Of a DNA stretch of 33,305 nucleotides, positions 3,001 to 33,280 are shown in pieces. The translations under genes and the position numbers were made by a program. The notes under the pieces are model-generated. The model saw only the letters and a list, made by a program, of their open reading frames with translations, did no database searches and had not been told where the DNA came from. The DNA comes from a virus. Numbering within the stretch: position 1 is the first letter of the stretch; every line of letters begins with the position of its first letter. The stretch is from positions 1 through 33,305 of the IMG/VR virus record IMGVR_UViG_3300031974_002550. The stretch is one strand, 5' to 3'.

Positions 3001-6000
3001 AACCGTGATAGTTTGCGGAGTCTATGACAATTTGAGCTCTAGAACTAGCATTTCTAGATCCATCGTGTCTATTTATCTCTCTTTGAAGTCTGTCTATGGT
3101 ATCTTCTGTTACGATTTCACCAAACAACTCTTGTCTACCTCTAAACAATTCAGTTACTTCAGGGTCGTTAGTTAAAAGATAGCTAAATACGTCAAAACCG
3201 GCTTGCTCAGCAATCATCTCAGCTAACGTATCTTTTCTAGTACCTTGCGTACTTCCACCCACGTTGTCCCCAAAAAAGAAATCTAAGAATTCCTGCTGAG
3301 TTACAACTCTCTTTTTCGTTTTACCTCTACCAACACCGGTACCATCTTCCTGTCTGTTGTCTCTAACCTGCTTGCCAGATTCTTTTGTAAATTTGTATAT
3401 AAAAGGGTGTTGTACATTATTGGCTTTCTCTTGTTTTGTTTGAATAGAAAACCTTTTATTTATAGCGTCAATAGGCATTATAGCGTATATATCTTCCCAG
3501 TGCTTTGCCATAAATTCCGGATATTTCATACCCAAGAAATTGTTTTTAAGTTTACTACCAAGAACTTTAGTTTGTATCTCAGTTTTTAACATAGTCATTA
3601 ATGACTGAGATAGATTTGTCTTAAAGTTTCTAGAAGATATATCTAATCTACCACCAAGTATTTTAATAACAGCTTCTTTAACTACGTTTTGAAGCTCTGG
3701 TGTAAAACCAAGAGTCTCCATGGTGTTAACCATTTGCTGTACATACTCTTCTTGCGTAAAGTTACCATAGTCAGGTGTATAACCTATTTGCTTGTTACCA
3801 ACAGCTGATGTTGCGTCTTCTGTAAACATCATTTCTTTTGAGCCAATCAACTCTCTTAATATATTACCTTGTCTCAACGGTAAATACGTGTTCATGTAAG
3901 CACCTAAAGGGCCTTTAGATGGATCATATTGGTTTTCAAGTATGTTAAAGAACTCAAGATTATATGCTTGTCTAAAATCCTCTAAAGTTAATTTACTTTC
4001 GATGTTTGGATTAAACTGTTTATTTACAGTGCCTTCTATTATACCTCTGTTTAACTCATAAAGCTCTTGGAACTTTTGTCTTTTAACCTCTGGAGATGTT
4101 TTTGGATCATAAGCCTCGTCTACTATCAACTTGTTTTTTCTAGTAATGTCTTTTGCTTTTTGAGATATACCAGCTGGAAACTTACCTTGGTCAGCTAAGT
4201 CTCTTTCTAGTTGTATAGCTTTGTTAAGCTCTTTTATTTTTTCTATATTTTCTTGCATTTGCTTAGCAACACTAGGATCATCTTTAGATGAAACTAATGC
4301 TTTTTGCTCAGCGATAATAGCTTGCTTTTGCTCTTCAAGAGTTATTTGTGCTCTTGACTTTTTTTCACCAGTAACCTCATCTACTTCAACCGCTCCTTTT
4401 ATTTTTACAGTACCTTTACTGTTCAAAAAGTTGTTCCAATTTTTTAAAAAACTAAAAACGGACGAAGCTGTTGAAAAGTCAACCTCTGCGCCTGTGGCTC
4501 CAAATACAGCTTTGTTTATAGCCTTACCCATTCTAGAAAAAGCATCAGCCATAGGGGATTTAACATCAAAAGCTTGTTGTACTTGTAGGTAATCGCTCAT
4601 CGCTGTTAAAAACTCTTGATTCAATGTTTGTTGATCAACTCCTCTAGATTTATAATTAGCCTGTGTTTGATTTAAAAACTCAACCATTAGCGATGTCTTT
4701 ATATCACCAGAGTTTTTTAAGTCATTTTTTAATTGACTAACCATATCAGAGACTATTTTTGGGTCTATAGAGTCTAATATAAAGTGTGTTACTTCGTGGC
4801 TTTCAGCGAAGGCAGCAATCAAAGCACCGTCTCTCTTTCTATCGCTATTTAATATATTTTCTTTAATATTTTGATCTACAATCAATGCTGGTGTCAAATC
4901 TTTACCTTTGTACTTTATTTTAACACCAGATTGCAAAGCTACACCATTAGCTTTTCCGTCAAGCAATGCCTGAACTTGATCATCAACTTTTATTTTATAT
5001 CTTTTAACGAAAGCCGCTGCTTGTTTTCTAGTTTTAAAAGTAAAAACTCTTTTATCGGCCATTGGCCCTTCGGTGGACTCGTTAACTCTATTAGCAGCTT
5101 TTCCTTTGTTTTTTGTGTAAGAATCTATGACTTGAATTTTTTGCATTTCGTATTTAGAATCCGCCACGTCATTTAAAGATGTTTCTAACTGCTCTTCTCT
5201 ATATTTAATATCTTCTTCTGTTGAAGATTTGTTTTGTTTAGCCTGCTCTAAATCTTGTGCTTTATTTTCAGCCACTCGTTTTTTAGAAACATAATCATTT
5301 GCTTTTTCTATTGCGGCTGTTTGATTTTCAGGACCAACTTGATACAAACCTTCATCTATCAAGACATCAGTAGTATCATTAATATTGCTAATTTGCTCTT
5401 CAGCTTCTTTTTTAGTTATTTTACCCTCTTTTAGATCTCTTTTAACCTTTGCTTTTTCAGCTTTTATCATAGATAAAACATGATCTTTGCTGCTCCAGTT
5501 AGCTTTTAAAGATATTTGTTCTCCGGTAAAGTTTATCAAAGATCTACCTTTACCCATTCCAAAGAATATTAAGCTGCTTAAAAACCCTTGTCCAGCGCCC
5601 TCTTTTACTCTGGTTGGATCAAATTTATAAACACCAGTGCTAACATTAGCACCAACCATAGAATTTATTTCTTGTAAACTTTCAGTTATGGATTCTGCTG
5701 TAGATATTCTTAATGCATCAACAGCCATGTTCTTACCACCTGATTTTTTTATTGCTTTTTTAACCTCTCCTCTTAATAGAGCTCTCCAAGCTTGTTTCGG
5801 AACAACTTTCGCTGCTTTTGTTGCTACAAATATATTTGAAGCAAAATCTAAACCAGCATTCACCGCACCAACGACAATAGCAGTATCTGGATCATCTTCT
5901 CCGGCCTCTATAATATCAAAAAGCATTTGTTGCTTTTCTTTATCACTAGCAGAGGTAAAACCCATGCCATATTTATGCTCAGCTATTCTATACAATGATT

Positions 6001-22568: not shown

Positions 22569-24995
22569 TCACCTGGGTTCAAAAGAACCTAAATCAAAAT
22601 CACCACTCAATATATCATTTCCTGATGATTCAAAATCTTTTGGCCCGGTGTTTTTTTGTCTTTGCTCTATAAGTTGGCTTTGCTGACTTGCTTGCATTTT
22701 AGTTCTGTCATCTTTTCTGTCTTCTTTAAAACTTTCTTTAGATCTATAAACTTCAGCTTCTTTTTCCTTTAAAGCCATGTTTATTTGGAATTCATAAGAC
22801 ATCAACTCTTTCTTCAAATTAGCCTCTTCTTTTAATCTTTGAGAACTTAAAGAAGATTTTGCTTGTTCTAATTGTATCTGAGAGCCAGTTAAAGCCTGTT
22901 GTTTTTGTACCTCAAGTTGAGCAGCTGCTTGTTGAGCTTGAACATTTGCCTCTGCTTGAGCCTGCATATTTTGTTGCTGAATCAATTGATCTCTTTGTAG
23001 CTTTTTCTTTCTTCTAAGCTTTAGTAATTGATTAGCTAACTTTAAATTTTTAACTTCTCTAATATCAATTGCATCTTCTAAATCTATAGTGCCTTGTGAT
23101 ATAGCCATTTGTATGTTATTTTCCAACATGGCTTTTTCTTCGTCATCAGGTGTTAACTCTATAAATATACCAAAATCATGTAGATGTAATTGGTCTATAT
23201 CTTCTAACGTAGACACGTTGTGTATACCTATCTGTTGAATAAAAGCATCTCTAGTTGGAGAATACTCTAGTATATCAGATACTCTTAAAGATAACGCTTC
23301 TGCTATTTCAGCTGTTATAAACAATCCTCCTTGTAATATATGTCTAGTAGCGGTATTACTATTGGCAGCCGCTAGTTTCTGAACGCCAACCAATGCTTTA
23401 GCATCAGGCATGCTACCATCTCTAGCTTCGTTTAATCCCGTTACATCTCTAATCATTTGCAGATAATAGTTGTACGTGTTTATCAACGATGCTATCTTAT
23501 TATTACCAGATCCAGATGCTATTTCTTGAATAGGTATTTTACCTGGATTTAAATCTCCTTCAGAAGTAAAGGATCTACCAATAACAGAACCAGTCTGGAA
23601 GAACATATTAAGCGCCTCCTGAGGATTATAATTAGTACCATTTCCTAAGTCTATTTCCGCGAGTCCATCAGCATCCAAATATATTCCGTCTGGAACCATT
23701 CTAGATAGAACTTGCTGAAGTTTTAAATGCGTTATTTGTATCATGTCAGCGAAACCAACTATTCTGCTGACCAACGATTCTATTCTACCTTTGTACATTC
23801 TAGGAGCAACTATAGAATAATTCATTCTAACCTTAGTTGAGTCACTTTTAGGACGCATCATGTTTTTAGCCAACTCCCATTTTAACAATGTATTTGTTCC
23901 TAAGACTAGAGCTCCTTCGTATAAAACCTCTATTGATCTAGAGACTTTTTCAAATTTATCGTCAAGTATTTCCGCTGGAGGATTAAAAGTGTCATCTTTT
24001 ATTAATATTTTAGAAGCTCCAGTCCCTGTTTGTTTTACTTTGTAAACTTCATTAGCATATGTTTTGTAATTAAAGTAAAGTATTTGAACAGAGTTTTTAT
24101 CTACATTGTTTGTTTCATTTATAGTTCTATGGTAAAAATCAGTATTTTGAACACCCTGTTTAGTTAAGTCTTCTAATTGATCCTCATCTAAATCAGGAAA
24201 CTGTTTTTTAAGTTCGTTTATAGGTATTGTTTTTATCTCACCAACATAATAAATGTCTTCAAAATAAGGTGAATCTGTATATGAATAAATAATGTCAGCA
24301 GGGTCAACGTATTCTACTTTTATACCCTCTGACTTGTTAAAGGTTGTTTTTGCGCAACCTATACCTAAAACTGTTAAATCGTAATTAACTCTTTTTCTTA
24401 TTAACTCATATCTATTAGACTCGAGTATTGTGTTTATAGCTTGCTCTTCCGCGATCTCAACAGACTCTTTGTAGTTCAGCTGCATGTGTAACTCAAGCTC
24501 CTCTGTGTTCTCCGGTATTTTGTCTTGTGGGTTTTCAAAAAGATTAACACCAAAAGCTTCCATTGCAAAGTTACTTAGTTCTTTTGTCTGCATATCTCTT
24601 AAAACAGACTCCATGTAAGCAGTTCTTTTCTCTATACCGTAAGGATCTTGAGAGAAGGCTTTAATGTCAAAAGTTCTCTCACTTATACCGTTTACAACTA
24701 TATCAACAAATTTTGGTATAATTGGAACTGGTTTCCAGTCTAAATTTAAATAAGATAGATCACCATTAATAGATAATTCATCTTTATACTTTTGTATTGA
24801 TTGTTCACCTCTAGCATAAAGCCTTCTTCTGTGAAACGTGTTTTGATTGTTATAAAACCTATTAGTACCTGAGTCTCTTTTAAACCACTCATGCTCTATA
24901 GCTTTAGCAACTTTTAACCCATACTCTGGGGTAACTTTTTCTAAGTCACTAGCTACTTGACTAGGAAAATAACTTTTTACAACTGACTCAGCCAT
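22569..24995 (-). CDS. Portal protein, 808 aa
   Basis: Follows the terminase with an 8-base overlap (ATGGCTGA), implying coupled translation. The first 650 residues have a mixed helix/strand composition typical of portals, including MIQITHLKLQQVLSRMVPDG and IRDVTGLNEARDGSMPDAKA, a helical segment near the portal crown-clip boundary. Residues about 655-780 form a long Gln/Ala/Lys-rich coiled coil. The size (about 800) agrees with portals of crAss-like phages. It forms the dodecameric vertex ring through which DNA is packaged and ejected. The C-terminal tail ends SSGNDILSGDFDLGSFEPR. Confidence 0.85.
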   Translation of the reverse strand: MAESVVKSYFPSQVASDLEKVTPEYGLKVAKAIEHEWFKRDSGTNRFYNNQNTFHRRRLYARGEQSIQKYKDELSINGDLSYLNLDWKPVPIIPKFVDIVVNGISERTFDIKAFSQDPYGIEKRTAYMESVLRDMQTKELSNFAMEAFGVNLFENPQDKIPENTEELELHMQLNYKESVEIAEEQAINTILESNRYELIRKRVNYDLTVLGIGCAKTTFNKSEGIKVEYVDPADIIYSYTDSPYFEDIYYVGEIKTIPINELKKQFPDLDEDQLEDLTKQGVQNTDFYHRTINETNNVDKNSVQILYFNYKTYANEVYKVKQTGTGASKILIKDDTFNPPAEILDDKFEKVSRSIEVLYEGALVLGTNTLLKWELAKNMMRPKSDSTKVRMNYSIVAPRMYKGRIESLVSRIVGFADMIQITHLKLQQVLSRMVPDGIYLDADGLAEIDLGNGTNYNPQEALNMFFQTGSVIGRSFTSEGDLNPGKIPIQEIASGSGNNKIASLINTYNYYLQMIRDVTGLNEARDGSMPDAKALVGVQKLAAANSNTATRHILQGGLFITAEIAEALSLRVSDILEYSPTRDAFIQQIGIHNVSTLEDIDQLHLHDFGIFIELTPDDEEKAMLENNIQMAISQGTIDLEDAIDIREVKNLKLANQLLKLRRKKKLQRDQLIQQQNMQAQAEANVQAQQAAAQLEVQKQQALTGSQIQLEQAKSSLSSQRLKEEANLKKELMSYEFQINMALKEKEAEVYRSKESFKEDRKDDRTKMQASQQSQLIEQRQKNTGPKDFESSGNDILSGDFDLGSFEPR

Positions 24996-27207
24996 AATTT
25001 TCTATTAATTTTGATCTTATTCCGTTATTTTTATATCTTCCGATATTCAAATTTATTGATTGTTTTTCTACAGATGCTCTTGGGCTATATAAATGTCTAT
25101 TACAAGCCATTATTGCTAAACCAGAACTAATAGTAGCATCAAACTTAGTTCTTTTATTTATATCAAATCTAACCCAATCATTTAAAGTTTTGTTAAAATA
25201 AACATCACCATAATTACCATCGCCTAAATGACCAACATATCTATCTATATATGTTTCTATAGCGGCGGCGTGTGCTTGTTTAATATCTTCACTTGTGTTT
25301 GGTATACCACCTATCTCTTTTTCGGCGACAGAAAGTTTATTCCAAACTTTATCAGGTCTATTCATTGAATATCCTCTATAGCCTCTTCTTTTTAAATAGT
25401 ATAATAATCTAGGTTTGTTATTTTCAGCTAAAATTGGCATTCCGTAAAACACTAAAGCCATTAAAACATCTTCAAAAAACATTTCAGCCGTCTGTGGTCT
25501 AGCTATATATTCTAAGAAAAAAGAATTAGATGGAGCATTTTCCATACTAAATTTAGTTAGTCCATGCAAAGATCCTTTTGATCCTTTTCCATCAGTCGTT
25601 CCGGATATATCATAAGAGTCACACCCGAATGCGCCAATGTGTTCATTACCTGCGTATTTAATTCCATTTTTTATAATTTGTTTATTTTGCAAAGAAGGCT
25701 CTGGAACCCAAGTTATATTAAATCTTCCGTTTGGATTTGGTGTGAAAAATACTCTAGTATCTTTTATACCATTTTCCCATTGAAAGTTTCCTTTTGTAAC
25801 AACATTTCCATAACCTATACCCTCATTGTAATCTATTTGCTCATAAAGCTTAACAAGATTAAATATGCTATTTTTAGTTTCGTCTCTAAAAGCATGTTCT
25901 TCAGTTCTAGGAAACTGTCTATAATACTCATTTAAAGCGTCTTGATCATTTTTTAAACCTTCAGCTTCATTTTCCCAGTGTTCTATTACACCAACGTCTA
26001 TTATGTCACCGTATGGTCCTTCAACCTCTGTTTCCGGTGTGTCAAATACAGGTGCTCCATAAGAATCAATGAATCCTTCGTAGTTCCATTCCATAGGTAT
26101 GAACAAAGAATATAGTCCCGAAGCAGTCTGTCCATTGCGGTTTCGTTTAGTAACGTCTGAAGAGTAATATAATTTTTTAAAGTTTTCACCACCTTTGTCT
26201 AAAGCATTAGACGTGCTACCCATCATACACTTACCAATAATTCTAGATCCTAGTCTAAGAGTAGTTTTTGTAACTCGCCAGTTATTTAATATGTTGTCAG
26301 GTCTTTCCCACTTACCACTTTCATCGTGCACTAACAATCTTAGCTTTTCACCATCATAGCTGTTGTCACCTGTGTTTTTCCAGTCTATTGTTGTATCAAG
26401 ACCTTCTAGCTCTTCTTTTTTATCGGTTGACTGTATAGATTTTCTAGTTAATTTAGAAGCTGGGACTCTATAAGCTAATTCTGTTTTTGGACGGTCCATA
26501 CCGTCTTGTATTGGTCTAAAAAAGAAAGGATAGTTAACTGATATTGGTACAACTTTGTCAGTAAACATTTTTTTAGCATCAGCACCTGTTTTTGATAGTA
26601 TACCAAATCTACTATCACTTGATATGGTAGCCATATTAACAGTTTCAGCTGAAGCCATAAAAGAAAAACCAGATCGTCTGTTTTTCAAATAACACATACC
26701 GTAGCATCTTTGATCAGCTTTACAGGCTTCCCAGAATATAAAAAATAATCTATTAGCTTCTCTAAAGTCTGGCGCACCAACATCTATTTTGCTCCATTGA
26801 AGATACATATAATGCGTTCCGGTTATATAAGTTGCAACATTGTTATTATAAAACCAAAAACCATTTTCTCTTCTTTCAAACTCCTCTTCAATATACGGCT
26901 CCCACTTTTCCTTAAAGTTATCAGTGGTATCTCTCCAGTCAAATATTGTTTTTATTCTATTTAATTCTTTTGGATAATCTTTTTTGACCCACTTGTTATC
27001 TTCTTTTTCTAGTTTCAACGGTTGAGGTGGTAAAGCTATTTTTAAATTCTGTATGCTATACACCTGCCCAATTTTACCATTTCTACTTATAACAACAACG
27101 TCGTGTTCTTTGTTGTAACCATATTTCCACGATTTAGACTTGTTTAGTCTTTTTATCGTAGTTGACTTTATTGGTTCTATTATTTCAAGTAAACTTTGCT
27201 TGTACAT
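24988..27207 (-). CDS. terL: Terminase large subunit, 739 aa
   Basis: ATP-driven packaging motor and headful-type nuclease. The Walker A position (residues about 173-184, YLKNRRSGFSFM) lacks the classical GKS/T, as in crAss-like terminases. Walker B is LRLLVHDE (289-296), and GSTSNALDKGG (330-340) is in the coupling-motif position. The RNase H-like nuclease begins at D530 (GCDSYDISGT), with acidic residues around 578-580 and D690 (FDATISSGLAIMA) as later metal-ligand candidates. The N-terminal block ITGTHYMYLQWSKIDVGAPD is also characteristic. The start shares one base with the stop of the preceding small gene (TAATG), and the end overlaps the portal gene by 8 bases. Confidence 0.92.
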   Translation of the reverse strand: MYKQSLLEIIEPIKSTTIKRLNKSKSWKYGYNKEHDVVVISRNGKIGQVYSIQNLKIALPPQPLKLEKEDNKWVKKDYPKELNRIKTIFDWRDTTDNFKEKWEPYIEEEFERRENGFWFYNNNVATYITGTHYMYLQWSKIDVGAPDFREANRLFFIFWEACKADQRCYGMCYLKNRRSGFSFMASAETVNMATISSDSRFGILSKTGADAKKMFTDKVVPISVNYPFFFRPIQDGMDRPKTELAYRVPASKLTRKSIQSTDKKEELEGLDTTIDWKNTGDNSYDGEKLRLLVHDESGKWERPDNILNNWRVTKTTLRLGSRIIGKCMMGSTSNALDKGGENFKKLYYSSDVTKRNRNGQTASGLYSLFIPMEWNYEGFIDSYGAPVFDTPETEVEGPYGDIIDVGVIEHWENEAEGLKNDQDALNEYYRQFPRTEEHAFRDETKNSIFNLVKLYEQIDYNEGIGYGNVVTKGNFQWENGIKDTRVFFTPNPNGRFNITWVPEPSLQNKQIIKNGIKYAGNEHIGAFGCDSYDISGTTDGKGSKGSLHGLTKFSMENAPSNSFFLEYIARPQTAEMFFEDVLMALVFYGMPILAENNKPRLLYYLKRRGYRGYSMNRPDKVWNKLSVAEKEIGGIPNTSEDIKQAHAAAIETYIDRYVGHLGDGNYGDVYFNKTLNDWVRFDINKRTKFDATISSGLAIMACNRHLYSPRASVEKQSINLNIGRYKNNGIRSKLIENYG

Positions 27208-27479
27208 TACTTAGATCTTCTTTCAGCAAAACCTTTAAAAGATTTTTCTTGTTTCTCTATAGGCTTGTCGTCAAGCATAGCCTTTTCCTCTTGTATTCTA
27301 TTTAAAATTTCGAAGGCATCGAATATGGCCAACTTTTTAGTAGCGGCAGCGTTCTTGAGTCTATCAGCTGAGACATCATCATCAGTTTCAACGATCGGCT
27401 CTTTAGCGACTTTAATAAGCTCTTTGACCGCCTCATGTCCAGCTAGGATTATATTCTCTTTCGTTTCCTTTACGTTCAT
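27207..27479 (-). CDS. Candidate terminase small subunit, 90 aa
   Basis: A small helical protein (NIILAGHEAVKELIKVAKEP, then DVSADRLKNAAATKKLAIFD, then FEILNRIQEEK), directly upstream of terL with a TAATG overlap. I have seen closely similar small genes beside terminases of marine phages. Terminase small subunits are helical DNA-recognition proteins of this size, but I see no clear helix-turn-helix, so the role is inferred from position. The start lies 47 bases inside the end of the co-chaperonin gene. The A-rich leader CAATTACAATTAAAT is compatible with initiation here; the next in-frame Met (residue 68) would cut off most of the protein. Confidence 0.65.
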   Translation of the reverse strand: MNVKETKENIILAGHEAVKELIKVAKEPIVETDDDVSADRLKNAAATKKLAIFDAFEILNRIQEEKAMLDDKPIEKQEKSFKGFAERRSK

Positions 27480-28032
27480 ATTTAATTGTAATTGAATTTG
27501 AATCTACTCTATATAGTCTATCTTTGTCTAAAACAAACTCATATTCTGATCTTGGAGAAAAACCAACTAAATCTTCTTCTTTTATACCAGAACATTTTAA
27601 ATCGTCTGAAACAAACTTCATGACCCCAACCAATGGTTTTTCTTTATCAATACTAAACTTATCTTCGTTATGTATTGGTTTAACAAAACAATAACCATCT
27701 ATAGCTCTCCAACCATCACCTTTGTTATATGCAAAAACTTGATCCTCTGACACAAAAAACTTGTCTTCTTCAAAATAGCTTCTACTATTTTTTTCATTGC
27801 CTCTAACATCATAAAAACGTCTAAAAACGTTGTGATGGACAACTACTTTATCACCTATTTTTATATTAGTATTGTTTTTTATCGGTGTTGACATAACTAC
27901 ACCTATTCTACTAACATATCTATGGTCTTGTAAATCACTGTTTAATATAAGTTCTTTGTCACCTATTTTTTTTACAGAGTTGTTTCTATTGCCTTCGGGT
28001 TTTACTATAAAGTTTAAAACGCTTCTTTGCAT
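27433..28032 (-). CDS. Tandem GroES-like co-chaperonin (two Cpn10-type domains), 199 aa
   Basis: Two GroES-like halves can be seen. Domain 1 (about 4-103): FIVKPEG at strand 1, a loop with the hydrophobic triple LIL (28-30) where GroES has the IVL of its GroEL-binding mobile loop, SRIGVVMSTP, IKIGDKVVVHH (58-67), and KFFVSEDQVFA. Domain 2 (about 110-185): DGYCFVKPI, LVGVMKF, GIKEEDLVGFSP and DRLYRVDSNSI; its mobile-loop region is short. It is encoded just before the packaging genes. Phage co-chaperonins such as T4 gp31 redirect the host GroEL to fold the capsid protein; the same job is likely here. A fused pair recalls chloroplast Cpn20. The start shares one base with the preceding stop. Confidence 0.75.
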   Translation of the reverse strand: MQRSVLNFIVKPEGNRNNSVKKIGDKELILNSDLQDHRYVSRIGVVMSTPIKNNTNIKIGDKVVVHHNVFRRFYDVRGNEKNSRSYFEEDKFFVSEDQVFAYNKGDGWRAIDGYCFVKPIHNEDKFSIDKEKPLVGVMKFVSDDLKCSGIKEEDLVGFSPRSEYEFVLDKDRLYRVDSNSITIKYERKGNEREYNPSWT

Positions 28033-28252: not shown

Positions 28253-28480
28253 TTAATTAGATTTTATTTCACCCGTTGTAGTGTCTATTGTTACTTCGCC
28301 GTATTTTTTTTGTAATTTAACTTGATAATCGTTAAGATCTTTTTGAGCCACGGCAGTATCGTGTAATATTTGATGTTTCTGTAATTCTAATCCACCTAAA
28401 GTGATTTGCTTATTTTTAATAACATCTAGAAAATCATTTAATTCTTTAAGCTCTTTTTTTGTTATTTTTTTATTAGCCAT
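28253..28480 (-). CDS. Small coiled-coil protein, 75 aa
   Basis: A Lys/Gln/Leu-rich helical protein with heptad-like hydrophobic spacing (KKELKELNDFLDVIKNKQIT, then GGLELQKHQILHDTAVAQKD) and a short beta C terminus (YGEVTIDTTTGEI). I recognise this as a widespread small gene of marine phages, with two amphipathic helices ending in KYGxVxI; its role is unknown. It lies 16 bases after the glycosyltransferase-like gene. It may oligomerise through the coiled coil. Confidence 0.65.
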   Translation of the reverse strand: MANKKITKKELKELNDFLDVIKNKQITLGGLELQKHQILHDTAVAQKDLNDYQVKLQKKYGEVTIDTTTGEIKSN

Positions 28481-28496
28481 AATAATTTAATTTAAT

Positions 28497-29399
28497 TTAT
28501 TTTTTATTTTTTTTAGGATCGGCATCAATGTACCAGTTTTTATATTTATTTCTTTTTGAGGTTATATATTCAAAATAATTATCTACTTTATCTCTCCAGT
28601 TATTTTCTAGTTTTGGGTTAAAAAAACCAGACTTGCTGCTTGAAAAAACTTTATTTATAAAATTAACACCATCATGTTGATTGTCAAACAATCTATGGTT
28701 TATAGCGTAAAAAGATCCTCTGTGCTGTTGATTCCAAACATCTATAGGTTCTATTTCTTTACCTAATGCCACCGAGTATATAGCGCTCTCGGAAATATGT
28801 GTTGTATATACTTTTTTAGCTTTTTCTAAAAAGTGATACATGTCGATGTCTCTGGGTAATATGCATTCTTCCCCAAAAAAATCTTTTATTTCGCCTATAA
28901 TAGCATGTGTAGTTATTGGATGCGGTTTAAAGTAAACATTATCTCCGTGTTCTTTTTTTATATCCTTAAGTTTATTTAAACAAGCTACTTGTTTTAATTT
29001 ATTAGACCCAGGTAAAACAACTAAATAATCTTTATCTTCGTATTTATCAAAATCTTGCTTTCTATCAGTGTATTTATTAGAAAGTTTATTTTTAATATTT
29101 TGACGAAGATATTCAGCATAATCCAAAACCTCACAATCATCATTGTAAGCATCGATTATGGCCTCAGTTCTAAATTTAGAATTCAAAGGCTGACAATAAA
29201 AATTAGTAGCATATTCTGTATACCCCATTGTTTTGAAATAAGGCATTTCTTCCGCTATAACGTCGTAACTATGCTCTAAATTGTTTTCTTTAGATTTTCT
29301 AATAACATATCCTTCGACTTGCTCTAGAATATCTAAATTTTTTGTTTTCTTTAAAGGTCCTATTCTTTCTTTGAGAACCTTGCTATTAAACATCTCCAT
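28497..29399 (-). CDS. Candidate GT-B-like glycosyltransferase (capsule/polysaccharide transferase-like), 300 aa
   Basis: The C-terminal half has the look of a GT-B nucleotide-sugar-binding half: YLVVLPGSN (125-133), VYFKPHP (155-161), ILPRDIDMYHFLEKAKKVYT (180-199), and HISESAIYSVALGKEIEPID (201-220). This pattern (K-x-HP, then an acidic position and helix, then SES plus a small-residue helix and G-x-x) is shared by capsule-type (KpsC/KpsS-like) and related transferases. The N-terminal half is less clear. It has no membrane segment. It lies between two Thr/Ser-rich fibre genes and the head genes, unlike typical replication or lysis genes, so it may modify a virion protein or host surface sugars. 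The substrate is unknown, and the family assignment needs a profile search. Confidence 0.55.
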   Translation of the reverse strand: MEMFNSKVLKERIGPLKKTKNLDILEQVEGYVIRKSKENNLEHSYDVIAEEMPYFKTMGYTEYATNFYCQPLNSKFRTEAIIDAYNDDCEVLDYAEYLRQNIKNKLSNKYTDRKQDFDKYEDKDYLVVLPGSNKLKQVACLNKLKDIKKEHGDNVYFKPHPITTHAIIGEIKDFFGEECILPRDIDMYHFLEKAKKVYTTHISESAIYSVALGKEIEPIDVWNQQHRGSFYAINHRLFDNQHDGVNFINKVFSSSKSGFFNPKLENNWRDKVDNYFEYITSKRNKYKNWYIDADPKKNKK

Positions 29400-29457
29400 A
29401 TTTTATTAAATTTAATTTATAATATTCACTATAATAATCACATATATATACTAACTG

Positions 29458-30690
29458 TTAATATAAGTACGACTTAACAGTAGATAATCTTTTAACCCAA
29501 GTGTTATAATTCGACCTAAGTGTTGAGTAACCAGTGGACCAAGACGTTGTAAAACTAGTTGTCGTGCTCCACGAAGTGATCCATGAAGTGGTGGTTAATT
29601 GACTTGTTGTCCAGCTTGTTGTGGTAGAGGCACTAGTCGTCCAGCTAGTCGTTGTGCTTTTGCTAGTAACCCAAGTTGTTGTATAACCAGTTGTAGTTGA
29701 TACACTAGTACTAAAACTTGTAGTTGTAGAACTACTTGTAGTCCAACTTGTGGTAGTAGATTTACTAGTAGACCAAGTTGTAGTAAACGTAGTCGTAGTA
29801 CTCTGACTTGTGTTGAAACTAGTTGTTGTAGAACTACTAGTGGTCCAAGACGTTGTTGTTGATTTAGACGTCGACCAAGTCGTGGTAAAAGTAGTTGTAG
29901 TACTTTGGCTAGTATTAAAGCTAGTTATAGTAGAACTACTGGTAAACCACGAAGTAGTTGTATCCCTAGATGTGGACCATGTTGTTGTAAACGTTGTTGT
30001 TGTGTTTTGACTTGTAAACCATGAAGTCGTTGTGGTTTGGGAAGTTGTCCAACTTGTGGTTGTAGAACTACTTGTTGTCCAGCTGGTTGTATAAGACGTT
30101 ATTGTGGTTTTTGATGTAGCTTGGCTTGTCGTCCAAGATGTAGTATACGTAGTTGTTGTATCCTGCTGCGTTCCTCTCGATGTTGTCCAGGTAGTTGTAT
30201 ACGTTGTGGTCGTAGAATGAGATGTTCCATGACTAGTTTGCCACGTTGTTGTATATGTAGTAGTTGTACTAGAACTTGTATTAAAATATGTTGTCCACGA
30301 TGTCGTCCAAGCAGTTATGGTTATACTACTTGTAGATCTTGAAGTTGTCCAAGAAGTGGTATAAGTAGTGGTTGTACTGTGAGATGTTGCTTGGCTGGTT
30401 GTCCAACTAGTCGTCGTGTTATAAGACGTTGTTGTACTGCGAGAAGTACTCTGACTCGTATTCCACGTAGTTGTGGTTGAGTGACTAGTAGTTGTTGATC
30501 TTGATGTTGACCAAGATGTAGCCCAACCTGTTGTTGTAGAACTACTTGTGTTATAATATGTAGTCCAACCTGTAATCCTAGTCTCAAGCGTAGTCCTACT
30601 CGTTTGTTTATCGGTAAAAACATCTCCTGTCCAAGAGGTAGTCGTTAATCTAGACGTTGTCCGAGAAGTGTTCCAGTAAGTAGTAGGCAT
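29458..30690 (-). CDS. Thr/Ser-aromatic repeat fibre-like protein, 410 aa
   Basis: After a short, non-repetitive start (PTTYWNTSRTTSRL, then SWTGDVFTDKQTSRTTLE), the whole body is Thr/Ser with a Trp, Tyr or Phe about every tenth residue (unit like TTTSWTTSxS) and Arg, Lys or Gln near each unit end. Three almost perfect 34-residue copies lie at 29656-29961. The C-terminal 20 residues (STLRSNYNTWVKRLSTVKSY region) are non-repetitive. It is a paralogue of the upstream repeat protein (gap 4 bases) but lacks the Hint domain. The regular aromatic spacing suggests a fibrous beta structure, perhaps trimeric; virion location is inferred from its place in the structural operon. It is unlike any named family I know. 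Confidence 0.75.
   Translation of the reverse strand: MPTTYWNTSRTTSRLTTTSWTGDVFTDKQTSRTTLETRITGWTTYYNTSSSTTTGWATSWSTSRSTTTSHSTTTTWNTSQSTSRSTTTSYNTTTSWTTSQATSHSTTTTYTTSWTTSRSTSSITITAWTTSWTTYFNTSSSTTTTYTTTWQTSHGTSHSTTTTYTTTWTTSRGTQQDTTTTYTTSWTTSQATSKTTITSYTTSWTTSSSTTTSWTTSQTTTTSWFTSQNTTTTFTTTWSTSRDTTTSWFTSSSTITSFNTSQSTTTTFTTTWSTSKSTTTSWTTSSSTTTSFNTSQSTTTTFTTTWSTSKSTTTSWTTSSSTTTSFSTSVSTTTGYTTTWVTSKSTTTSWTTSASTTTSWTTSQLTTTSWITSWSTTTSFTTSWSTGYSTLRSNYNTWVKRLSTVKSYLY
29656..29961 (-). repeat. Three tandem 102-bp coding repeats
   Basis: Three adjacent 34-residue copies of TTTSW-x-TSSS, T-x-TSF-x-TS-x-S and TTT-x-aromatic-TTTW-x-TSKS fill exactly 306 bases; the third is more diverged. The period is 10+10+14 residues. 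Adjacent DNA is also degenerate repeat sequence. The repeats are inside the gene, in frame, and could change in number by slipped pairing or recombination without breaking the reading frame. Confidence 0.85.
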
Positions 30691-30694
30691 TTTA

Positions 30695-32404
30695 TTATGG
30701 TGATATTTTAAAATTATGTGTTAATATTCCATTGGCATAAAAAACATCGTTTGGTTCAACATCTACTTTCCAAACTTTATATGTATTAACACTGTCTAAT
30801 ACTAAAGACGTTATCTCTATCTCTTCATCATTTATGTTTAAAAATACATCGCCAATTTGTAATTCGTTAGTATTTTTAACCCGCCAAAGTCCATCTCTTT
30901 TTATTACATGTAAATGTTCTTCTGTCGTTTTTAACAAACCGTCATTTATTATCCAAACACCAATAGCATCAAATCTATATAAACCTCTTATTGATTGTAT
31001 TAACTTTTCGCCATTTATACTTTCTGACGTTATTGTTTTTAAGGTATCAACATCATCAGTGTTGAAGGGACAATCTTTTGTTAATATACTATGATTTGGA
31101 TACAGTTGTTCTACCGGTAGTTTTTGCGTTGTAGATATATTTACTTCGGTTCCTTCTACTACGCATTTAGGGTCGATAAATGGATCATCTCCATCATCAG
31201 TTATTGTTGATGTTTGCCAGATAGTCGTGTATGACGTGAGCGTTGATGTGCTAAAGCTTCCACTTGTCACCCAGTACGTAGTCCAAGTTGTTGTTGTGTT
31301 ATATGATGTAGATCGCGAGGTAAATTTACTCGTTTGCCAAGTCGTCGTTGTTGTTCTACTGGTTATCTGACTTGTATTAAACGTAGTGGTTGTTGAATAA
31401 CTTGTAGTTGTACTTCTACTCGTTGCCCAGTATGTAGTATACGTAGTTGTGGTAGAATGTGATGTACCTGTCGACCTTGACGTTGTCCAGTACGTAGTGT
31501 ACGAGGTTATTGTTGTTTTAGACGTACTTCTACTCGTTGTCCAATACGTCGTCCAAGTTGTTGTAGTATCTCTTTGCGTGCCTCTACTGGTACTTCTACT
31601 AGTTTGCCAAGTTGTTGTAGTAGTGTGTGATGTGCTTCTACTAGTGTTATAATATGTTGTATATGACGTTGTTGTAGACTTGCTGGTTGATCTACTAGTA
31701 GTCCAATATGTTGTCCAAGCTGTTATGGTTATAGTTGAAGTGCTTCTTGACGTGGTCCAACTAGTTGTGTAGCTGGTTGTTGTATCATGTGATGTTGATC
31801 TACTGGTTGTCCACGAGGTGATTGTAGATCTACTAGTTGTCCATGAGGTTGTTGTAGATCGACTAGTAACCCAACTGGTAATTGTAGTGCGAGAAGTACT
31901 TTGACTTGTGTTAAAAGTAGTTGTTGTAGTTATACTAGTAACCCAACTGGTTGTTGTAGATTTAGAAGTTACCCATGTTGTTGTGGTAGACTTAGATGTT
32001 GATTGGCTAGTGTTAAACGTAGTTGTAGTACTTCTAGATGTTATCCAAGATGTAACGGTGGATTTAGAAGTTATCCATGTTGTAGTAGTAGAAGCCGTTG
32101 TGGATTGGCTTGTATTAAAAGTAGTTGTAGTAGATCTACTTGTAGTCCAACTGGTAACAGTGGATTTACTTGTGGTCCAAGTAGTAGTTGTTGTATGACT
32201 AGTTAATTGCGAAGTATTGAAACTAGTAGTAGTTGAAGCGCTTGTTGTCCAAGACGTAGTAGTTGACGCACTTGTACTCCACGAGGTTGTCGTAGAAGCA
32301 GAAGTGTTTGCTGAAGTTGTAGTGCTCACAGATGTGGATTGTGAAGTAACAATGCTTGTGCTTGTACTCCACAGATTAATTCTAGAAAAACCTATCTGCT
32401 TCAT
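30695..32404 (-). CDS. Thr/Ser-aromatic repeat fibre with C-terminal Hint domain, 569 aa
   Basis: Residues 1-30 are a short start (MKQIGFSRINLWSTST). Residues about 38-390 are Thr/Ser-rich repeats with a Trp/Phe/Tyr at spacings 10, 10, 14 (first aromatics at 42, 52, 62, 76, 86, 96, 110), with five clear 34-residue units at residues 38-207. A short acidic linker (ITDDGDDPFIDP) leads to a Hint domain at 414-564: C414 followed by VVEGT, TEEH in the block B position, the strand NTNELQIGD, and the closing VDVEPNDVFYANGILTHN. The last five residues are FKISP. It likely forms a virion fibre. The Hint part should cut or self-process; normal splicing is unlikely because Phe, not Cys/Ser/Thr, follows the terminal Asn. 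Confidence 0.8.
   Translation of the reverse strand: MKQIGFSRINLWSTSTSIVTSQSTSVSTTTSANTSASTTTSWSTSASTTTSWTTSASTTTSFNTSQLTSHTTTTTWTTSKSTVTSWTTSRSTTTTFNTSQSTTASTTTTWITSKSTVTSWITSRSTTTTFNTSQSTSKSTTTTWVTSKSTTTSWVTSITTTTTFNTSQSTSRTTITSWVTSRSTTTSWTTSRSTITSWTTSRSTSHDTTTSYTTSWTTSRSTSTITITAWTTYWTTSRSTSKSTTTSYTTYYNTSRSTSHTTTTTWQTSRSTSRGTQRDTTTTWTTYWTTSRSTSKTTITSYTTYWTTSRSTGTSHSTTTTYTTYWATSRSTTTSYSTTTTFNTSQITSRTTTTTWQTSKFTSRSTSYNTTTTWTTYWVTSGSFSTSTLTSYTTIWQTSTITDDGDDPFIDPKCVVEGTEVNISTTQKLPVEQLYPNHSILTKDCPFNTDDVDTLKTITSESINGEKLIQSIRGLYRFDAIGVWIINDGLLKTTEEHLHVIKRDGLWRVKNTNELQIGDVFLNINDEEIEITSLVLDSVNTYKVWKVDVEPNDVFYANGILTHNFKISP
30713..31165 (-). other. Hint (hedgehog/intein-type) domain within the fibre gene
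   Basis: It spans Cys414 to Asn564 of the 569-aa protein, about 151 residues, the size of a mini Hint domain with no homing endonuclease. The N-terminal block is C-VVEGTEV, the block B TxxH histidine is in TTEEHLHV, and the C-terminal blocks are KVDVEPNDVFYANGILTHN. The next residue is Phe, so a bacterial-intein-like or adhesin-type cleavage is more likely than splicing. Confidence 0.85.
31784..32293 (-). repeat. Five tandem 102-bp coding repeats
   Basis: Residues 38-207 form five 34-residue units (T-x-TSW/F-like decamer, second decamer, then a 14-residue third part), 510 bases in total. The aromatic residues keep a strict 10-10-14 spacing, although unit sequences vary (for example SNTSQ-like endings alternate with SRS and SKS endings). 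Further, less regular copies continue to about residue 390. Confidence 0.85.
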
Positions 32405-32413
32405 AAATTAATT

Positions 32414-33280
32414 TTATTGGAAATTACCTACATAATTGCAAAGCACTTTGTCTGTTGCTAATACAAAATAAGATATTATTGATACAGCGCCACTTGTATT
32501 AACAAATGATACACTAGCACCCTCAGGTGTTAACATATAACTAGGTAACGCCTGAGCACTGGTTGCGGCTGTGTTGTTTATAATTATTGTACCGGATTGA
32601 CCAATGTTATTACTGCTTATACTTAGCGCTATTGAATATGTGCCACTAGCGTTTAGTAAAAAATTATCATTGGTACTTAAATTTATTGAAAAAATATTAA
32701 ACGGATTTTTAGAAACCGTTGTTAAAGATCTTAATAACGCTCCGTCTATAAAAGAGTTACCATTTACATGTAGTTTAGCTTTTGAATTAGCCTCTGTACT
32801 TTGTGTTGAGCCATTTAAACCTATACTAACATCACCAGTGTGACCTATAACTATTCTAGGTGTTGGAGATGATCCTGTTCCAGAGGGACTTGTAGCTAGT
32901 GTCATGTAACTACCACCACTGCTACCAGTTCCAGCAGCTGCCCAAGTATAAGCATCGATCCAAGCATTACAATATCCGTCAGTAGCATCGTCTTTAACGG
33001 ACCACTGAAGTCTACCTATAAGATCATTACCCAAAACCGTGGTATCAAATCTTCTCAAATCTAATATACCACCAACTACGTTTGCAACACAAAGATCTGG
33101 TGGGCTACTAAAAGCGATTGCGTCTATATTGTTTATATTGACACCAACTTGATCGTTAACAGTGTCTACATACAAGACGTTAGTATCAACGGCAAGCGTT
33201 TGTGATATTGTAGCTGTACCGTTGACTACTAAGTCTGTAGAACTGCCAGAAAGTAAAGCGTCTGCTAATAACTTTGGCAT
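32414..33280 (-). CDS. Tail fibre / virion appendage protein, 288 aa
   Basis: The N terminus (PKLLADALLSGSSTDLVVNG) and the short beta-rich motif LYVDTVNDQVGVNIN recall the repeated VDTxNxxVGI-type shaft motif of phage tail fibres and of head fibres in marine phages. The middle (RLQWSVKDDATDGYCNAWID) and the C terminus (GTIIINNTAATSAQ, then SIISYFVLATDKVLCNYVGN) are beta-rich, as in trimeric fibre tips. It lies at the right edge, first in the fibre cluster, 9 bases before the Hint-bearing repeat gene. Receptor binding is inferred. The 25 bases to the right edge are AT-rich with no sign of another gene. Confidence 0.72.
   Translation of the reverse strand: MPKLLADALLSGSSTDLVVNGTATISQTLAVDTNVLYVDTVNDQVGVNINNIDAIAFSSPPDLCVANVVGGILDLRRFDTTVLGNDLIGRLQWSVKDDATDGYCNAWIDAYTWAAAGTGSSGGSYMTLATSPSGTGSSPTPRIVIGHTGDVSIGLNGSTQSTEANSKAKLHVNGNSFIDGALLRSLTTVSKNPFNIFSINLSTNDNFLLNASGTYSIALSISSNNIGQSGTIIINNTAATSAQALPSYMLTPEGASVSFVNTSGAVSIISYFVLATDKVLCNYVGNFQ

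Follow-up and report, generated by a model that had tools for sequence, protein, structure and literature searches.

INTRODUCTION

Bacterial flagellin O-glycosyltransferases of the Maf type act in the cytoplasm, where they transfer a nonulosonate from its CMP form, and reportedly also Kdo, directly onto Ser/Thr residues of a self-assembling filament. Mucin-like and serine-rich-repeat glycoproteins are low-complexity Ser/Thr proteins that carry dense O-glycans and are encoded beside glycosyltransferases (GTs) of their own. CMP-Kdo or CMP-sialic acid serves as the donor for the enzymes KpsC, WbbB, KrkA, and polysialyltransferase. Sialyl- and Kdo-transferases hold CMP through a (K/R)xHP motif (PMC12887879), and in the retaining Kdo enzymes the nucleophile lies in a QxxxD motif that follows the first strand of the C-terminal domain (PMC12887879, PMC9587256). 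In mycobacteriophages, phage-encoded GTs go together with glycosylated virion proteins, as reported by Freeman et al. 2023 according to PMC12619734. Here we describe a locus at which a phage-encoded, Kdo-type O-glycosyltransferase probably decorates a mucin-like fibre. Our literature searches returned no report of these proteins.

RESULTS

The window analysed here is the whole 33,305-nt virus record IMGVR_UViG_3300031974_002550, which is a fragment. The features relevant to this work are as follows:

24988..27207, minus strand: terminase large subunit (phrog_6681, E=1.4e-169)
28253..28480, minus strand: conserved 75-aa gene at the 3' boundary of the module, by neighbour comparison
28497..29399, minus strand: 300-aa GT-B candidate (open reading frame and fold model)
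29458..30690, minus strand: Ser/Thr-rich repeat protein 2, 410 aa, 67% Ser plus Thr, predicted acceptor (composition; same slot in nearly all homologous loci)
30695..32404, minus strand: Ser/Thr-rich repeat protein 1, 569 aa, fibre-like, with the repeat in residues 1 to 405, predicted acceptor (composition)
30713..31165, minus strand: Hint (bacterial intein-like) domain, residues 414 to 564 of the 569-aa protein (PDB profile match and alignment)
32414..33280, minus strand: small upstream fibre-region protein, 288 aa (conserved C terminus ending in LCNYVGNF, same place in relatives)

An earlier note on this DNA had placed a GT-B-like candidate directly downstream of two Thr/Ser-rich proteins, and the three minus-strand open reading frames (ORFs) are indeed present. 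On that strand, the fibre-region protein, which had no match in a Pfam search, is followed by the 569-aa, 410-aa, and 300-aa proteins, three small genes, the terminase, the portal, and virion proteins. The three central genes look like one operon, since the gaps between them are only 4 and 58 bases. One of the small genes, at 27433-28032 (minus strand) and adjoining the terminase, encodes a GroES-like co-chaperonin of the phage type; another is the 75-aa gene, which in GT-lacking relatives directly follows an ordinary fibre region. The nearest annotated records of the terminase are Flavobacterium and Cellulophaga phages, the hosts of its relatives are Flavobacterium, Cellulophaga, Tenacibaculum, and Maribacter, and the sole relative of the 300-aa protein found in a bacterial genome collection belongs to a Flavobacteriales metagenome bin; the host is therefore likely a marine member of the Bacteroidota.

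The hundreds of hydroxyl sites that had been attributed to the repeats were confirmed by counting, with 275 in the 410-aa protein and 267 in residues 1 to 405 of the 569-aa protein (66% Ser plus Thr). The repeats have periods of 10, 14, and 34 residues, and Trp, Phe, or Tyr residues are spaced 10 and 14 residues apart. All four ACN codons are used for Thr and both AGY and TCN codons for Ser, so simple repetition at the DNA level does not account for the amino acid pattern. A Ser plus Thr fraction of at least 0.35 was found in ~9% of ORFs of at least 100 aa, in a locus set that is itself enriched for such ORFs, and the median was 0.12. An AlphaFold2 model of the Ser/Thr fibre contained strands at a pLDDT of 36 and is uninformative on structure. 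The earlier note had also pointed to D-T-T sites as a link to the D-S/T O-glycosylation motif of Bacteroidota hosts. Such sites do occur four times (at positions 205 and 277 in the 569-aa protein and at 175 and 241 in the 410-aa protein); however, D-[ST]-[AILVMT] occurs only twice per protein against a shuffle mean of 1.3 (P ~0.4), and D-S/T-x motifs cover <1% of the repeat hydroxyls. As the count is no higher than composition predicts, we rejected this motif as a glycosylation signal and dropped the host link.

The description of the 569-aa protein as a Thr/Ser-rich repeat protein holds up to residue 405, but its last ~155 residues lie outside the repeat and form a Hint domain that had been missed. 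This domain matches Hint, bacterial intein-like (BIL), and intein domains in the PDB by profile (best E ~8e-9; 2lwy, 2.5e-5) and has the Hint/BIL landmarks Cys414, T494-x-x-H497, and a C-terminal H563-N564 pair. It differs from a splicing intein in that Asn564 is followed by Phe instead of Cys, Ser, or Thr, with just 5 residues beyond and no real C-extein. The equivalent gene of a related locus (L056) closes with Peptidase_S74, the endosialidase-fibre chaperone, and on this basis, together with gene position, the Ser/Thr protein is presumed to be part of the virion. The Hint and Peptidase_S74 domains occupy the equivalent gene end, as if they were interchangeable self-processing modules. Because both are self-processing, the Hint domain may be a C-terminal self-cleaving or anchoring device. 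A further observation concerns several loci (L041:4233-5282, L025, L016, and others) in which the two Ser/Thr fibre genes flank a gene for a methyltransferase-like protein with a fused, degenerate Hint domain that lacks Cys1 and His-Asn. The plain methyltransferase-like form is also found in a GT-lacking relative (L142), beside a long ordinary fibre. We therefore rejected these genes as part of a glycosylation system and regard them as tied to fibres in general.

For the earlier note, failure of the 300-aa protein to match any glycosyltransferase profile would have counted against its proposal. No Pfam family matched, glycosyltransferase profiles included, and the only matches were to PHROG families of unknown function; its fold, in contrast, was predicted with confidence. 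An AlphaFold2 model built with 41 relatives adopts a GT-B fold (pLDDT 84.6, pTM 0.84), and a Foldseek search with this model ranked KrkA and WbbB first. In VIA-align, the best 15 rows were all KpsC, WbbB, KrkA, or polysialyltransferase, enzymes with CMP-Kdo or polysialic acid chemistry. Kdo transferases headed the list, with Z scores of 9.6 for KpsC, 9.5 for WbbB, 8.7 for KrkA, and 8.2 for polysialyltransferase; for such a model, values of 8 to 10 at an rmsd of 4 to 5 indicate a shared fold and not a shared activity. Comparison with the bacterial sialyltransferases (GT38/GT52/GT80) gave Z scores of 8.2 for 5wcn and 7.5 for 2zwi.

Motifs of the 300-aa protein include Asp46, LPGSNK (residues 129 to 134), KPHP (158 to 161), and T-H-I-S-E-S (200 to 205). 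Residues D46, K109, Y110, G131, N133, K158, H160, P161, T163, E204, and G258 are invariant in 23 diverse homologues with identities down to ~25%. Both the GT-B fold and the (K/R)xHP CMP motif of GT99, GT107, and GT140 are thus present in the modelled protein. The QxxxD nucleophile is absent from the protein and its homologues, the corresponding loop being LPGSNK, which contains no Asp, and membership of GT99/107/140 was rejected because this motif is missing. Profiles of the bacterial sialyltransferases (GT38/GT52/GT80) gave no match over the curated cut-off, and a PDB sequence search with the GT profile returned only KpsC, at an E value of 1.7. Below threshold, PF07388 (polysialyltransferase) appeared at an E value of 0.02 in 2 of 41 members and PF07922 (GT52) at 5e-4 in the homologue from phage KVP40. 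A DNA-modifying GT was rejected, as neither fold nor context points to nucleic acid. On the modelled fold and its motifs, the 300-aa protein appears to belong to a CMP-ulosonate transferase family of its own. An inverting mechanism appears more likely, since the CMP motif is kept while the nucleophile motif is missing, and the enzyme is plausibly inverting.

A query with the 300-aa protein returned 80 viral loci, and over all loci 97 distinct homologues were collected, of which 89 were testable for an upstream ORF. In the 80 viral loci, a Ser/Thr-rich ORF lay directly upstream wherever the sequence permitted, even where the downstream genes differed, with one apparent gap (L036). Among the distinct testable homologues, an ORF with a Ser plus Thr fraction of at least 0.35 was found directly 5' of the GT gene in 84 of 89, and four others were near-cases. 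In L224, one other gene separates the repeat from the GT; KVP40 has one small gene in between; the upstream gene of phage Cr30 encodes a Thr/Tyr-rich protein of 116 aa; and L036 was rejected as a GT without a repeat, as its repeat is present but frameshifted. The frameshift in L036 (~1060-2632) is near the start of the Ser/Thr ORF and is an assembly error or possibly phase variation, and the intervening gene of L224 (2287-3033) encodes a 248-aa protein that is GT-A-like by eye and had no Pfam match. The one true exception is Stenotrophomonas phage DLP6, which has the GT without any Ser/Thr repeat protein.

An unbiased control set of 80 loci was drawn by terminase, ignoring the GT, and 39 of these had at least 3.5 kb of upstream sequence. 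The GT and the Ser/Thr-rich ORF were both absent from all 39, and in the relative L126 the corresponding position, flanked by the same genes, is taken up by ordinary fibre genes. The comparison of 88/89 with 0/39 gives a Fisher P of ~3e-32, a value to be read with the caveat that the loci are not independent, most homologous loci being related to one another. Reverse sampling with a DNA pattern for the repeat yielded 27 loci, in which the GT adjoins every long Ser/Thr array that has DNA past its 3' end. Two candidate Ser/Thr proteins without a GT were rejected: the record of L212 carries a GT split by a frameshift, and that of L203 has a PF11397 GT instead. The co-occurrence of the two gene types, which the earlier note had suggested checking, is therefore almost perfect in both directions and extends over several phage families.

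The window's terminase type was missing from 19 GT-positive loci in which sequence was available, and the pair was found in the Vibrio phages KVP40, VS2, and QD01, in the T7-like Caulobacter phages Lullwater, BL199, and Quill, and in a prophage. Given its presence in such differing phages, the two genes are cotransferred between unrelated phages. In a prophage record from an isolate genome (L232), the GT homologue (3731-4515) is interrupted by a frameshift or stop, and radical SAM and methyltransferase genes lie after it. One phage contig (G001; L235, 7214-10959) has no homologue of the 300-aa GT, and a PF11397 GlcNAc-transferase (232 bits against a Pfam gathering cut-off of 21; E 1.6e-68) is encoded directly upstream of two Ser/Thr-tailed fibre proteins. 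The PF11397 family is known to act on polypeptides. This arrangement suggests that a Ser/Thr tail requires a glycosyltransferase of one kind or another, whose sugar varies.

The finding of a KdsB gene in a contig with a Ser/Thr fibre prompted a systematic search for Kdo-supply genes. kdsA turned up in 7 of 30 module-bearing contigs and in 0 of 40 relatives lacking the module (P 0.0017), kdsB in 7 of 50 and 0 of 40, respectively (P 0.016), and several of these genes scored over the cut-off of NCBIfam equivalog models. One contig adds a KdsD-like isomerase. In L260, the gene order is Ser/Thr repeat, GT, cupin, methyltransferase-like gene, and kdsA, followed by the small genes that trail the GT in the window, so that kdsA sits between the GT and the 75-aa edge gene. 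No kds gene was seen in the window itself, which is a fragment. Among 50,697 annotated phage records, 14 match KdsA at an E value of 1e-10 or better, 4 of these at at least 40% identity. Three annotated phage records have kdsA or kdsB without a GT homologue. A cupin-KdsB-KdsA cassette was noticed near ribonucleotide reductase genes in three marine phages (L255, L256, and L257), and in L255 and L256 the kdsAB cassette is followed by a GT29-like gene. In view of the GT-less records and these two adjoining GT29-like genes, kdsAB is not exclusive to the 300-aa enzyme. Control searches for GT29 matched no control genome, and absence from relatives therefore proves little.

DISCUSSION

Computation of the fold, the CMP motif, gene linkage, co-loss, and Kdo-gene enrichment revealed a phage GT that is genetically tied to a presumed virion-protein acceptor, as is characteristic of phage self-glycosylation systems. 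The proposal that this phage glycosylates its own fibre thus gains support from fold, co-occurrence, and the Kdo-supply genes of relatives, and we consider it likely that the 300-aa enzyme glycosylates the fibre with some sugar. The fullest version, a widespread, horizontally shared phage system in which a mucin-like fibre is coated with Ser/Thr-linked Kdo by a new, CMP-Kdo-dependent and probably inverting GT family, with some phages bringing their own Kdo-supply genes, has about an even chance of being correct in every part.

In our preferred model, which is fairly probable as a whole, the window would encode a virion self-glycosylation module. The two fibre proteins, with their mucin-like Ser/Thr-aromatic repeats, would be synthesized in the host cytoplasm, where the GT-B enzyme would modify the repeats' Ser/Thr hydroxyls directly with an acidic 2-keto sugar before assembly; the likeliest sugar is Kdo, with CMP-Kdo as donor. 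The CMP-Kdo would come from the host LPS pathway, with kdsA, kdsB, or a KdsD-like gene supplied by some relatives. The invariant Asp46 is a candidate for the catalytic base of an inverting reaction. The predicted product is a strongly anionic tail bristle, which may keep the fibre soluble or extended, protect it against receptor decoys or proteases, or bind receptors.

The sugar may be a different one. The donor that the GT uses on the fibre could be of the glycerol-phosphate type or a CMP-ulosonate other than CMP-Kdo, carrying sialic, legionaminic, or pseudaminic acid, with the kds genes of relatives serving other enzymes. Polysialyl- and sialyltransferases are among the fold matches, the weak Pfam hints are to GT52 in the KVP40 homologue and to polysialyltransferase in two members, and kdsAB lies beside a GT29-like gene in two contigs. 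However, Kdo-specific kdsA/kdsB equivalogs are enriched with the GT, the kdsA of L260 is within the GT's own gene run, and Kdo transferases head the fold list, so that we regard another sugar as unlikely.

Somewhat less probable still is a role of the GT in altering host LPS or capsule, for superinfection block or progeny release, with a common receptor linking it to the fibre. Phage seroconversion GTs are well known, the structural relatives of the enzyme build LPS and capsule, and fibre and receptor-modifying genes can adjoin. Against this, the GT accompanies the Ser/Thr repeats in phages that differ in host and fibre tip, and relatives with an ordinary fibre at that position lack it. Furthermore, G001 has swapped in a family that acts on polypeptides, and no membrane-anchor or flippase partner was recognized by eye beside the GT. 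Finally, the even periodicity of the 10-residue repeat, as in beta structures, and the strands of the otherwise uninformative fibre model (pLDDT 36) would suit an unmodified, hydroxyl-lined beta fibre with the 300-aa protein as a non-catalytic assembly factor or unrelated late gene, but this is improbable, as the CMP motif and other active-site-like residues are invariant to ~25% identity and a gene with no connection to the repeats would not follow them so closely.

If glycosylation of the fibre with Kdo is correct, a function can be assigned to two PHROG families of unknown function, the odd phage proteins made of little but Ser and Thr would be glycan carriers, and a reason is suggested for the presence of kdsA and kdsB in some phages. 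Protein-linked Kdo would then be a viral surface coat, and densely glycosylated fibres would revise views of how phages recognize their hosts, remain stable in seawater, and compete with one another. The model predicts an acidic glycan on the virions of cultured phages, namely, Lullwater of Caulobacter crescentus and KVP40-like phages.

Among known systems, virion glycosylation in mycobacteriophages is the nearest in kind, as phage-encoded GTs are there likewise reported to go with virion acceptors (PMC12619734). In those phages, the glycans are on the C termini of capsid and tail-tube subunits, whereas the presumed acceptor here is a dedicated fibre repeat with 60-70% Ser/Thr; going by these descriptions, the two are also set apart by the CMP-Kdo/sialic-acid type of the present enzyme and the Kdo-supply genes of some relatives. 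KpsC (GT107), WbbB (GT99), and KrkA (GT140) are the best structural matches and share the GT-B fold and the KxHP CMP motif, which KrkA keeps only in part, as Ser225-x-His-Pro. In contrast to these enzymes, which act on polysaccharides, the window enzyme lacks the QxxxD motif, is matched by no Pfam or PDB sequence over the threshold, and has a protein as its presumed acceptor. The PF11397 (GT60) polypeptide GlcNAc-transferases, absent from the window and found beside the Ser/Thr-tailed fibres of G001, are unrelated in sequence and presumably use UDP-GlcNAc, but they may serve an equivalent function with a different sugar. Maf-type enzymes are alike by description, although the window GT belongs to a different protein family and would have a viral acceptor. 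Compared with mucin-like and serine-rich-repeat glycoproteins, the fibres described here are viral and cytoplasmic, with regularly spaced aromatic residues and a Hint or S74 module at the C terminus.
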